Shown here: piece by piece, positions 51,572-56,207 of the stretch | Layout of the letters: each line of letters begins with the position of its first letter | How positions within the stretch are numbered: position 1 is the stretch's first letter | Assembly (NCBI RefSeq): GCF_003336245.1 | Contig: NZ_QPHM01000001.1 | Coordinates: 1,860,001-1,924,000 of the forward strand | Reading direction: 5' to 3' | DNA from: Haloplanus salinus | GTDB taxonomy: Archaea; Halobacteriota; Halobacteria; Halobacteriales; Haloferacaceae | Length of the DNA: 64,000 nt | Translations under genes and position numbers: made by a program | The notes under the pieces: generated by a model | Told to the model about the DNA's origin: nothing | The model's input: only the letters and a program-made list of their open reading frames with translations | The model's database searches: none

Positions 51572-52363
51572 ATGGGAATACTCTCGCGGGCCTCCTACGT
51601 CGTCCGGTCGAAGGTCAACGCCCTCCTGAATCGGGCCGAGGACCCGACGGAGACGCTCGATTACTCCTACGAGCGGATGCGAGACGAGCTGCAGGAAGTC
51701 AAACAGGGCATCGCCGACTTGACGACCCAGAAGAAGCGCCTGGAGATCCAGAAGCGACGGCTCGAAGAGAACGTCGACAAACACAACGAGCAGGCACGGG
51801 AGGCGGTGCAGCAGGACCGCGACGACCTGGCGCGGCGGGCGCTGGAGAAAAAAAAGGAGAAGATGAGCCAGATCGAGGACATCGAGGGACAGATCGCCGA
51901 CCTCCAGTCCACGCAGGACGATCTGGTGGAGAAGAAAAACGAGCTTCAGCGCCGGATCGATGAGTTCCGGACGAAAAAGGAGACCATGAAGGCTCGCTAC
52001 GAGGCGGCGGAGGCGTCGACCCGCGTCTCGGAAGCGATGAGCGGCGTCGGCGACGAGATGAGCGACGTGAGTCGGGCGCTGGAACGTGCCGAGGAGCGCA
52101 CGGACGACATGGAGGCCCGCGCGGCCGCGATGGACGAACTCCAGGAGTCGGGTGCGTTCGAGGACGCCCTCTCGGACGAGGACGCGATCGACCGCCAACT
52201 CGAGGCCGGTCGGACCGAAAGCGAGGTGGACGCGGAACTGGAGACGCTGAAAACCGAGATGGGAGCGGGGGGCGGCGAGCCGACGGACGCGCCCGCTGAC
52301 GACGACGTCGAGGCCGAACTCGACGAGTTGCGGGCCGAGGAAGACGACGAGGAGTCGGCCTGA
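51572..52363 (+). CDS. pspA: PspA/IM30 (ESCRT-III-like) membrane-repair protein
   Basis: The 263-residue protein starts MGILSRASYVVRSKVNALLN, the amphipathic helix of the family. It continues as a long coiled coil (30-190) with KKRLEIQKRRLEENVDKHN and KKKEKMSQIEDIEGQIADLQ. An acidic, disordered tail follows. PspA/Vipp1 proteins polymerise on stressed membranes. A GATTTTAAGG box lies 22-31 nt before ATG 51572. The stop overlaps the GCS2-type ligase start by one nt (TGATGG), so both are probably made together. Confidence 0.94.
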   Translation: MGILSRASYVVRSKVNALLNRAEDPTETLDYSYERMRDELQEVKQGIADLTTQKKRLEIQKRRLEENVDKHNEQAREAVQQDRDDLARRALEKKKEKMSQIEDIEGQIADLQSTQDDLVEKKNELQRRIDEFRTKKETMKARYEAAEASTRVSEAMSGVGDEMSDVSRALERAEERTDDMEARAAAMDELQESGAFEDALSDEDAIDRQLEAGRTESEVDAELETLKTEMGAGGGEPTDAPADDDVEAELDELRAEEDDEESA

Positions 52364-53889
52364 TGGGCGAGACGCCGACCCTCGTCGCCGCAGTCGAGCG
52401 CTCGACCGACTCCGACGTTCGTGCGGAGTTCGACCGCCGGGTCCGCGAGCAAGCCGACCGAATCCGCGACGACATCCGATCCGGCCGGCTGGACACGGAC
52501 GAGTTCGCGGTCGGGATGGAACTGGAGGCGTACGCCGTCGACGACGCGGGCCGTCTCGCCCCCATCCCGGAACGCGTCTTCGAGCGCGGCGGCTGTGCGA
52601 AGGAACTCGGCGTCCACAACTTGGAGGTCAACTCCGCGGCGACGGTGTTCGACGCGGCCGGCGTGGCCGAGCAAGCGGACCGCATCGGCGCGAGCGTCGA
52701 CGCCGCGGTCGACGCCCTCGACGACGAGGGCCTCGCGCCGGTCCTCGACGCGATGTGGACGATTCCTCCCGCGGCGGGCACCGACGCCTACCTCGGGGCG
52801 GTCGAGGAGCGGGACGGCGTGACCGTCGCGGCGAACATGCGCCACCACCCGCGTTACGTCGCCCTCGACAACGAGATTCTGGCGCGAAGCGGCGGGGAGA
52901 TCTCGCTCGATGTCCCCGGCGTCCGCCTCGGCTACCCGACCATCCTGGCCGAGTCGTTGGCCACATCGATCCAGCCGCACCTCCAGATACCGTCGGCCGA
53001 ACGCTTCCCCGCGTACTTCAACGCCGCCCTGCGGACGACGGGCCCCGTTCTCGCGCTATCGAGCAACTCTCCCTTTCTCCCCGCGGACTGTTACGACGAC
53101 GACCCCGACGTGATCCCGGCGACGCCACACGAACTCCGAATCCACGTCTTCGAGAAGAGCATCAACGCGGGGGCGCCACGCGACGAGGGCAAGGTCCGCT
53201 TCCCGTCCGATCTGGCGGCCGCGACGGACGTGGTCGACCGCGTCGTCGCCGACGAGACGTACGCGCCGGTCCTCGTCGACGACGCGGCCGACGACGCCAG
53301 CCCCTACCGCGCGACGCTGCCGGAGTACGACCACAAGCGGGGCGTCCACTGGCGGTGGGTGCGGGGCGTGATCGGCGGCCAACCGGTCGGCACCGAGACC
53401 GACGGCGCGTCGCTTCGCATCGAATACCGCCCGCTCCCGACCCAGCCGACCGTCCGCGACACCGTCTCGCTGCAGGTCCTCGTCGTCGGCCTCCTCCGGG
53501 GTCTCGTCGACGCCGATCACCCGGTCACCGACCTGCCGTGGACGGCTGCCCGCGACTGCTTCTACGACGCGGTCGACCGTGGCCCGGACGCGGACCTCGC
53601 GTGGGTGACCGCGGACGGCGACCGAACCAACGACCCAGAACTCGTCTACGACGAGGTGTTCGCGTTCGCCCGGCGCGGCCTCCGCGACGCCGGCCTCGAC
53701 GACGACGCCATCGACGTGCATCTCGGCCCGATCGAACGCCGACGCGACGGCACCGTGCCGAGCGCGTGGAAGAAAGCCCGCGTCCGCGAAGCCGTCGACG
53801 ACGGCGCCACCCTACCCGCGGCCATCGAGGCGATGCAGCGGGACTACATCGAGCGCGCGGGCGGGGAGACGGTCTTCGCCGACTGGTAG
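52363..53889 (+). CDS. GCS2-type carboxylate-amine ligase
   Basis: The 508-residue protein has the glutamate-cysteine ligase 2 fold: FAVGMELEAYAVDDAG near 50, LEVNSAATVF, the HPRYVALDNEI region, and the characteristic SIQPHLQIPSAERFPAYFN and ALSSNSPFLPADCY. It is longer than the short GCS2 ligases, with an extra C-terminal domain from about 370. Gamma-glutamylcysteine synthesis is possible, since haloarchaea use that thiol, but other amine acceptors are equally possible. It follows pspA with a one-base overlap, an unusual pairing. Confidence 0.82.
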   Translation: MGETPTLVAAVERSTDSDVRAEFDRRVREQADRIRDDIRSGRLDTDEFAVGMELEAYAVDDAGRLAPIPERVFERGGCAKELGVHNLEVNSAATVFDAAGVAEQADRIGASVDAAVDALDDEGLAPVLDAMWTIPPAAGTDAYLGAVEERDGVTVAANMRHHPRYVALDNEILARSGGEISLDVPGVRLGYPTILAESLATSIQPHLQIPSAERFPAYFNAALRTTGPVLALSSNSPFLPADCYDDDPDVIPATPHELRIHVFEKSINAGAPRDEGKVRFPSDLAAATDVVDRVVADETYAPVLVDDAADDASPYRATLPEYDHKRGVHWRWVRGVIGGQPVGTETDGASLRIEYRPLPTQPTVRDTVSLQVLVVGLLRGLVDADHPVTDLPWTAARDCFYDAVDRGPDADLAWVTADGDRTNDPELVYDEVFAFARRGLRDAGLDDDAIDVHLGPIERRRDGTVPSAWKKARVREAVDDGATLPAAIEAMQRDYIERAGGETVFADW

Positions 53890-53997: not shown

Positions 53998-55035
53998 TTA
54001 GCCGCCTTCTATGGGCCGTACGCCCGTCCCCGGCCGATCCGGGACGGCCAAGCTCCCGCCCGCGTACGTCGGCCCCTCGTACGCGTCCTCGGCGAGCAGA
54101 AGCGCGCCGTCGAGGTCGACGTAGTCCACGAGGGGCGCGAGGTGACAGGCGGCGGCGATGGAGGCGGTCGACTCCACCATACAGCCGAGCATCACCTCCA
54201 GTCCCTGTGCCCGGGCGGCGTGGACCATCCGGATCGCCTCGCGGACGCCGCCACACTTCATGAGTTTCAGGTTCACGATGGCCGCCCGGCCGGCCACCGC
54301 GGGCACGTCGGGCAGGGCCACACAGGACTCGTCGGCGGCGACGGGGAGGGCGCCTCGCTCGTGGACCCGCTTCAGCCCCGCGGGGTCCTCCGCAGGGACG
54401 GGTTGCTCGACGAACTCGACGCCGAGGTCGGCCAGCCACTCGCTTTTCGCTATCGCTTCGCCCGGCCGCCACGCCTCGTTGGCGTCGACGCGAATCGTCG
54501 CGTCGGGGGCCGCCCCCCGCACCGCCTCCATCCGTTCCCGGTCCCGACCGGTACCGAGTTTCACCTTCAGGATGGAGTAGCCGTCGTCGACGGCGTCGGC
54601 CGCCTTTTCGGCCATCGCCCCCGGGTCGTCGATGGCCACCGTGTAGGAGGTGGTCGGTGCCCGGCCGGCATCGAGGCCGAGGTAGCGATAGAGGGGAACG
54701 CCGAGACGGCGGGTCGCCACGTCGTGGACCGCGATGCTCACCGCGGCGCGAGCGGCGGGGTTGTCGCGGACGACGTCCCGGAGGCGCCGCTCGATGGCGT
54801 CGAGCGCGAGGGGGTCGTCGACCGCCTCGACGGCGTCGAGGAGGGCGGGCAGCACCGCACAGACGGTGTCGAGCGTCTCGCCGTAGCGGGGGTCCGGCGC
54901 GGCGGCGCCGACGCCCGTCTGTCCGGCCTCGTCGCTGACGCGGACGACGGCAGTCTCGACCGCCGTCTTGGACCCGCGGGAGATGGTGAAGTCGCCGTCG
55001 ACGGGGAGGGTCAGGCGCTCGAACTCGGCGTTCAT
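53998..55035 (-). CDS. dgcA: Enolase-superfamily racemase/epimerase, DgcA-like
   Basis: The 345-residue protein has the dipeptide-epimerase layout. The capping domain is 1-120. The barrel has the acid/base lysine in ILKVKLGTG near 158, then metal ligands in IRVDANEAW (near 186), FVEQPVPAED (near 216) and VAADESCV (near 240), and the opposite lysine in LKLMKCGG near 264. The family is usually called L-Ala-D/L-Glu epimerase. Because it is coupled by ATGA to a DUF1611 gene, I prefer an N-acetyl-D-glutamate racemase role (DgcA). That role is an inference from known DgcN-DgcA pairs. Confidence 0.85.
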   Translation of the reverse strand: MNAEFERLTLPVDGDFTISRGSKTAVETAVVRVSDEAGQTGVGAAAPDPRYGETLDTVCAVLPALLDAVEAVDDPLALDAIERRLRDVVRDNPAARAAVSIAVHDVATRRLGVPLYRYLGLDAGRAPTTSYTVAIDDPGAMAEKAADAVDDGYSILKVKLGTGRDRERMEAVRGAAPDATIRVDANEAWRPGEAIAKSEWLADLGVEFVEQPVPAEDPAGLKRVHERGALPVAADESCVALPDVPAVAGRAAIVNLKLMKCGGVREAIRMVHAARAQGLEVMLGCMVESTASIAAACHLAPLVDYVDLDGALLLAEDAYEGPTYAGGSLAVPDRPGTGVRPIEGG

Positions 55036-56078
55036 AACAGGGCGTCCAGAATCTCGTCCGCGCCGAAGCGGATCGGGTCGGTCGCCGGGGCGTCGATGGC
55101 CGTGGCGTACTCCTCGACGGCCGCGCGGGCCGCCTCGTCGTCGTCGAACGACCGCGTATCGAGGGTCCCCGCGGCCACGGCCGCCGGCGCGACCGGGGCC
55201 GCGAGCGACTCGTAGAGGTCGACGTACTCCTCGATTGGCGGGATGGCGGCGTCCTCGTAACCGTGGATGGCCTCGCGGCCGGCGCTGTGTGTCATGACGA
55301 GGGCGTCGGGCATCGCGCCGTGGAGCAGGCTACAGGTGACGCCGGAGTAGGCGGGGTGGACGATGGTGCCCTGTCCCTCGACGAAGAGCACGTCGTGCGT
55401 TTCGGCGGCGTCGAGGAGCATGCGCTCGACGGCGCCGGCGGCGAAGTCGGCGACGACGCGGTCGACCGGCACTCCCCACCCGGCGATCATGATTCCGGTC
55501 TGGCCGGTGGGGACGAAGCCGGCGTCGATCCCCCGCTCCTGCGCCGCGGCGACGAGTTCGAGCGTCGACGTCATCTTCCCCGTCGAGCAGTCGGTGCCGA
55601 CGGTCAGGACCACGTCGGCGTCTGCGTCGCGGGCGCGCCCCTCGCTCACGGTCAGATCGTCGGGCGGCCGGCGCACGTCGATCAGGTCGACGCCGTGGTC
55701 GGCGGCGAGGGCCGCGAACGCCTCGTCGTCGCCGAGGAAGTAGTGGAGGCCGGCGACCACGTCACAGCCGGCCTCGATGGCGGTGCGCACGTCGTCGCGC
55801 CACGACTCGTCGAAGCCGCCGCCGATGGGGGCGATGCCGATCAGGAGGGCGTCGGGGTCGGCGCCGGCATCGAGGGCGTCGGCCATGCTTCCGACGATGG
55901 GGGCGTCGGCCACGTCGGGCACGTGGTCGGCGACGGCCTCGCCGGCGCGCGCCCGGTCGAGCACCGCCGTCACGTCGTAGTCGGCGTATCGGAGGACGCC
56001 GACGGCCGTCTTCGCCCGGTCGGGGAACCGTTCGTGGGCGAGGACGACAACCGAGTCGTCCGGATCGAGTGAGACCAT
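55032..56078 (-). CDS. dgcN: DUF1611 P-loop protein, DgcN-like (putative D-glutamate N-acetyltransferase)
   Basis: The 348-residue protein has the DUF1611 architecture. An N-terminal Rossmann-like domain (DALLIGIAPIGGGFDESWR near 80) is followed by a P-loop-like domain with VGTDCSTGKMTSTLELVAAA near 165. Family motifs VPTGQTGIMIAGWGVPVDRV, VEGQGTIVHPAYSGVT and LVMTHSAGREAIHGYE come after. In bacteria DgcN acetylates D-glutamate and DgcA racemises the product. Here both are present, overlapping. Element copy C lies 46 nt upstream of ATG 56078 and could affect transcription. Confidence 0.85.
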   Translation of the reverse strand: MVSLDPDDSVVVLAHERFPDRAKTAVGVLRYADYDVTAVLDRARAGEAVADHVPDVADAPIVGSMADALDAGADPDALLIGIAPIGGGFDESWRDDVRTAIEAGCDVVAGLHYFLGDDEAFAALAADHGVDLIDVRRPPDDLTVSEGRARDADADVVLTVGTDCSTGKMTSTLELVAAAQERGIDAGFVPTGQTGIMIAGWGVPVDRVVADFAAGAVERMLLDAAETHDVLFVEGQGTIVHPAYSGVTCSLLHGAMPDALVMTHSAGREAIHGYEDAAIPPIEEYVDLYESLAAPVAPAAVAAGTLDTRSFDDDEAARAAVEEYATAIDAPATDPIRFGADEILDALL

Positions 56079-56123: not shown

Positions 56124-56207
56124 ATACGGATTAGTGTACCTGTGGACCGGTGGTTCGCCGGACCACCTCGGCGAACCACCGGTACTGACTCACACTAATC
56201 CGTATCA
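56124..56207. repeat. Palindromic intergenic element, copy C
   Basis: This is the best preserved copy. Outer arms ATACGGATTAGTGT (56124-56137) and ACACTAATCCGTAT (56192-56205) pair perfectly over 14 bp. Inner arms ACCGGTGGTTCGCCG (56146-56160) and CGGCGAACCACCGGT (56169-56183) pair over 15 bp. The right end continues TCA (56205-56207), complement of the stop codon of the quinone reductase gene. It lies between that gene and dgcN, both on the minus strand. Confidence 0.9.

Follow-up and report, generated by a model that had tools for sequence, protein, structure and literature searches.

A conserved DUF1611 and enolase-superfamily gene pair of Haloplanus salinus resembles DgcN-DgcA and may serve D-glutamate salvage

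The closest described counterparts of the locus reported here are the dgcN-dgcA operons of bacteria, which have been described as encoding a D-glutamate N-acetyltransferase of the DUF1611 family (DgcN) and an N-acetyl-D-glutamate racemase of the enolase superfamily (DgcA). A second described group, the L-Ala-D/L-Glu epimerases, also belongs to the enolase superfamily and acts on dipeptides. Our finding is already known in kind, as a DgcN-DgcA pair has been reported for halophilic archaea, to go by the title of Yu et al. 2023 (cited in PMC12363236). That title, together with the near-universal presence of the pair in Halobacteria described below, removes the novelty that an earlier note on this DNA had implied for an intact copy in a haloarchaeon. 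What the present analysis adds is the class-wide joint retention and loss of the two genes, the position of both proteins outside the bacterial clades, such that transfer of the annotation is not automatic, and the observation that the NCBI DgcA model fails to tell the racemase from a dipeptide epimerase.

The pair lies in a window of 64,000 nt, the whole stretch of H. salinus DNA that was analysed, and is read from the minus strand with the DUF1611 gene first and the enolase-superfamily gene second. Its features are as follows.

55032-56078, minus strand: DUF1611 protein, DgcN-like (putative D-glutamate N-acetyltransferase), 348 aa (ORF; Pfam PF17396 and PF07755; NCBIfam DgcN)
55572-55598, minus strand: P-loop-like motif GTDCSTGKM, residues 161-169 (translation; alignment)
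55494-55508, minus strand: TGQTG motif, residues 191-195, also in DgcN (alignments)
55368-55379, minus strand: EGQG motif, residues 234-237, also in DgcN (alignments)
55032-55035, minus strand: 4-nt overlap ATGA, comprising the DUF1611 stop and the enolase start (sequence, coding strand)
53998-55035, minus strand: enolase-superfamily racemase/epimerase, DgcA- and L-Ala-D/L-Glu-epimerase-like, 345 aa (ORF; Pfam; NCBIfam DgcA; model)
54559-54567, minus strand: KxK catalytic lysines K157 and K159 (invariant in 45 haloarchaeal rows)
54331-54486, minus strand: span of the metal-ligand triad D184, E210 and D235 (invariant in 45 rows)
54256-54258, minus strand: second catalytic lysine K260 (invariant in 45 rows)
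54109-54117, minus strand: DxD motif, D307 and D309, in bacterial DgcA and dipeptide epimerases alike (alignment; 45 rows)

Both reading frames and their 4-nt overlap are thus as the earlier note had described them. Just upstream of the DUF1611 gene is an imperfect palindrome (56125-56204) with 36-nt arms that are 83 % complementary. More than 20 sites in the genome carry full or partial relatives of it, which suggests a small palindromic repeat element, possibly inserted into the promoter region here. On the other side, a plus-strand ORF of 508 aa (52363-53889) is convergent with the enolase gene and has homologous ORFs in 11 of 80 haloarchaeal loci; it gave no Pfam match and no PDB sequence match, and its presumed resemblance to glutamate-cysteine ligase-type enzymes is an impression of ours that no test result supports.

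The closest named relatives of the two proteins come from other Haloplanus species (84 % and 79 % identity), and the pair extends across the class. Among 294 Halobacteria genomes, a match to the DgcN model was found in 268, none of them over the curated cut-off, and a strong match to this enolase in 266. Both genes were present in 266 genomes and neither in 26; the DUF1611 gene stood alone in two (G021 and G161), the first of which retains it intact without an enolase gene after it, and the enolase gene stood alone in none. The co-occurrence has a Fisher p of 3e-35, a value that makes no correction for relatedness, although the 26 absences are spread over several genera. Genomes of Halobacteria thus retain or lose the two genes jointly, the pair is present in about nine out of ten haloarchaea, and the H. 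salinus copy is an ordinary one. The genes dgcN and dgcA are themselves said, in the abstract of the 2023 report, to be widespread in Halobacteria. Elsewhere in the same phylum, a relative was seen in two genomes of one family, and the pair in one of these. At the level of the locus, the enolase gene lies directly downstream of DUF1611 in 79 of the 80 haloarchaeal loci retrieved, and 51 of those 79 share the same 4-nt overlap, so the pairing is far beyond chance.

The DUF1611 protein carries both domains of its family (DUF1611_N, 109 bits; DUF1611, 261 bits; both over the Pfam cut-off), and has the motifs GTDCSxGKM, TGQTGI and EGQG in common with annotated DgcN. Its best named NCBIfam match is DgcN (NF041892), at 267.6 bits against a cut-off of 480. 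The P-loop-like and metal-ligand motifs are all present, as the earlier note stated: G161, T162, D163, C164, G167, K168 and M169 are invariant in a 49-row haloarchaeal alignment, as are TGQT and EGQG, and the metal ligands of the enolase are equally constant. One nuance is that the P-loop-like motif closes with Met, at the position that is Ser or Thr in standard Walker A motifs. The structure model (pLDDT 86.2, with two short weak stretches) matched the fold of 2obn best (TM 0.85), followed by 2g0t (0.78) and, as the third distinct fold, the solved DgcN 7xrj (0.69), which also matches the protein in sequence at 2.4e-52.

The enolase-superfamily protein is likewise complete, with both Pfam domains over the cut-off (MR_MLE_N, 30.5 bits; MR_MLE_C, 145 bits) and with K157, K159, D184, E210, D235, K257, K260, R20, D307 and D309 invariant in a 45-row haloarchaeal alignment. 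R20 is also found in the aligned DgcA and YcjG sequences, at a position that we take, from AEE structures, to be the side-chain arginine site of glutamate-specific epimerases. DgcA (NF042940) is the best named NCBIfam match, at 261.2 bits against a cut-off of 400, and the dipeptide epimerase models NF011708 (225 against 343) and NF041118 (151 against 500) were not reached either. The structure model (pLDDT 95.9) found its best fold match in the Bacteroides dipeptide epimerase BT1313, solved with L-Ala-D-Glu (3iji, TM 0.93). The predicted folds support the family of the two proteins, and have no bearing on substrate.

Phylogeny sets the haloarchaeal proteins apart. In the DUF1611 tree they form a clade (100/98) separate from the bacterial DgcN clade (100/100), which also takes in sphingomonad DUF1611 genes located near dipeptide epimerases. 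Further off lie the DUF1611 type that adjoins PLP racemases and a second type from haloarchaea. In the enolase tree, DgcA, YcjG and sphingomonad dipeptide epimerases are intermixed in one clade (100/99), and the haloarchaeal sequences form a clade of their own outside it (98/97). The bacterial sequences in both trees come from plasmids and the PDB only and include several long branches, among them the insecurely placed 2obn and 2g0t, which leaves the deep order unsure; that the haloarchaeal proteins group apart from the bacterial ones is well supported in both trees.

A Pseudoalteromonas pair annotated dgcN-dgcA, beside the regulator dgcR, served as a control and barely passes both curated cut-offs (493 and 402 bits). 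An Enterobacter YcjG annotated as an L-Ala-D/L-Glu epimerase (L117:1468-2433) likewise clears the DgcA cut-off, at 430 bits, a higher score than that of the Pseudoalteromonas DgcA. As YcjG passes too, the DgcA model alone cannot settle activity and was rejected as a decider. The DxD motif was rejected as a dipeptide-epimerase marker, because bacterial DgcA also carries it. N-acetyl-glutamate racemases and dipeptide epimerases are inseparable by sequence or fold, and it is the tight coupling to DUF1611 that favours the racemase.

These results bear on the identity proposed in the earlier note. The best named models, the catalytic motifs and the joint retention and loss of the genes uphold its comparison with DgcN-DgcA, and a pair that works like DgcN-DgcA is plausible; neither protein reached the equivalog cut-offs or fell within the bacterial clades, so that, by the tests run here, they would not count as DgcN and DgcA proper. 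The note had itself named a position of the DUF1611 protein in a non-DgcN clade as evidence against its reading, and taken literally this is where the protein falls, even though the haloarchaeal clade, while distinct from bacterial DgcN, ranks among the groups closest to it. Its suggestion of D-glutamate catabolism is reasonable as a claim about how the pair works.

On balance, we consider it fairly probable that the pair is a two-gene operon for D-glutamate salvage of the DgcN-DgcA kind, and the strongest argument for such reactions is the tight enolase-DUF1611 coupling combined with the shared motifs. The DUF1611 protein would most likely N-acetylate D-glutamate with acetyl-CoA. In the enolase, following the mechanism of the superfamily, paired lysines over a metal ion would remove and return the alpha proton, and the presumed substrate would be interconverted between N-acetyl-D-glutamate and N-acetyl-L-glutamate. 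L-glutamate would then be freed by another enzyme, a deacylase that may plausibly be among the M20 enzymes of the genome. The genome has eight M20 matches, of the ArgE/DapE family, of amidohydrolase types and one of LysW type, and none of the eight was assigned to N-acetylglutamate; those other than the LysW-type enzyme are candidate deacylases for this last step. A search for members of the Asp/Glu racemase family gave no match in the genome. The LysW-type enzyme is a [LysW]-lysine hydrolase by score (512 bits against a cut-off of 363), which agrees with the arginine synthesis via a carrier protein that has been described in Haloferax (PMC8305020). With this strong hydrolase, and with no match to ArgJ in the genome, arginine synthesis offers no explanation for a step that makes N-acetylglutamate.

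The haloarchaeal loci, in which genes were called crudely, showed no transporter, regulator or deacylase conserved beside the pair, and no LysR-type dgcR was found among the window neighbours scanned with Pfam (51.4-53.9 and 56.2-58.9 kb). Two neighbours were considered and dropped as clues: in many loci PspA/IM30 is encoded close to the pair, apparently as a matter of chromosomal synteny, and an NhaC-type transporter, near one haloarchaeal pair and the Pseudoalteromonas operon, occurs in only 3 of 80 loci.

Among the alternatives, an unlikely one is that the enolase is an L-Ala-D/L-Glu epimerase working on bacterial cell-wall peptides, with the DUF1611 protein acting on D-glutamate or another product of them. 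The best fold matches are indeed dipeptide epimerases solved with L-Ala-D-Glu (3iji and 3ijq), a paralogous haloarchaeal DUF1611-epimerase pair keeps company with NlpC/P60, D-Ala-D-Ala carboxypeptidase and oligopeptide ABC genes, and sphingomonad DUF1611 genes occur with a dipeptide epimerase and serine hydrolases. The retained DxD motif, which would also fit, is not discriminating given its presence in bacterial DgcA; moreover, the common pair has no peptidase or peptide transporter conserved beside it, and the DgcA model outscores both epimerase models.

It is about as improbable, in our view, that the haloarchaeal pair is a functionally distinct housekeeping branch, held by some 90 % of Halobacteria, with a substrate or purpose unlike that of a DgcN-DgcA system feeding on external D-glutamate. 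Somewhat more doubtful is the related proposal of the same chemistry with another substrate (D-aspartate or D-glutamine) or another purpose, namely housekeeping repair of internally formed D-glutamate rather than feeding on bacterial remains. Presence in 268 of 294 genomes exceeds what one would expect of a scavenging niche, and the deep, separate clades of both proteins point the same way, whereas the invariance of R20 and its presence in DgcA and YcjG argue against a change of substrate. That the two genes are chance neighbours with unrelated roles can be dismissed, as nothing was found in its favour and the adjacency, the common overlap and the 26 joint absences all oppose it.

Other DUF1611 genes have other company. 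A second, divergent haloarchaeal pair of DUF1611 and dipeptide epimerase genes is found on plasmids and, in four genomes that were inspected, makes up the second copy (L096:6875-16828; L114:1-7829; L115:4456-7817; L116:2863-7817; L138-L141). The carboxypeptidase beside it in Halorussus halophilus, where the NlpC/P60 and oligopeptide ABC genes also lie, is of the S13 family, and in Haladaptatus caseinilyticus the divergent pair occurs with an annotated D-aminoacylase. This cluster looks like peptidoglycan-peptide salvage in archaea, and is less ordinary than the common pair. In Ruegeria and Vibrio, the DUF1611 gene overlaps a gene of the PLP-dependent alanine/ornithine racemase family instead of an enolase-type gene (L099:4611-6928; L100:4602-6940; L111:2605-4889). 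N-acetylated amino acids would be unlikely substrates for a PLP racemase, and the DUF1611 protein of these bacteria may thus serve a different function.

Returning to D-glutamate salvage, the reading that we prefer, its consequence if true is that most haloarchaea, which make no peptidoglycan themselves, could, in brines, channel D-glutamate that stems from bacterial cell walls or polymers back into ordinary metabolism. Set against known systems, the haloarchaeal DUF1611 protein resembles 2obn (Anabaena) and 2g0t (Thermotoga) over the full length of the fold, and for these two proteins we know of no function. The enolase has the fold and all the catalytic residues of the L-Ala-D/L-Glu epimerases (E. 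coli YcjG, 1jpd; BT1313), but is only 36-38 % identical to them and is partnered with DUF1611 rather than with murein peptide genes. It shares with DgcA the KxK lysines, the D/E/D metal ligands, the second lysine, R20, DxD and a position directly 3′ of a DUF1611 gene, and differs in its score (261 bits against 400), in lying outside the clade that unites DgcA with the E. coli-type epimerase, and in that no dgcR was seen adjoining. The DUF1611 protein differs from DgcN in its longer N-terminal domain, its score (267 bits against 480), its separate clade and a model nearer to 2obn than to 7xrj, whereas the DUF1611 fold, the three motifs and the place as first gene before an enolase-superfamily racemase are common to both, and the gene order is identical to that of the annotated dgcN-dgcA operons.
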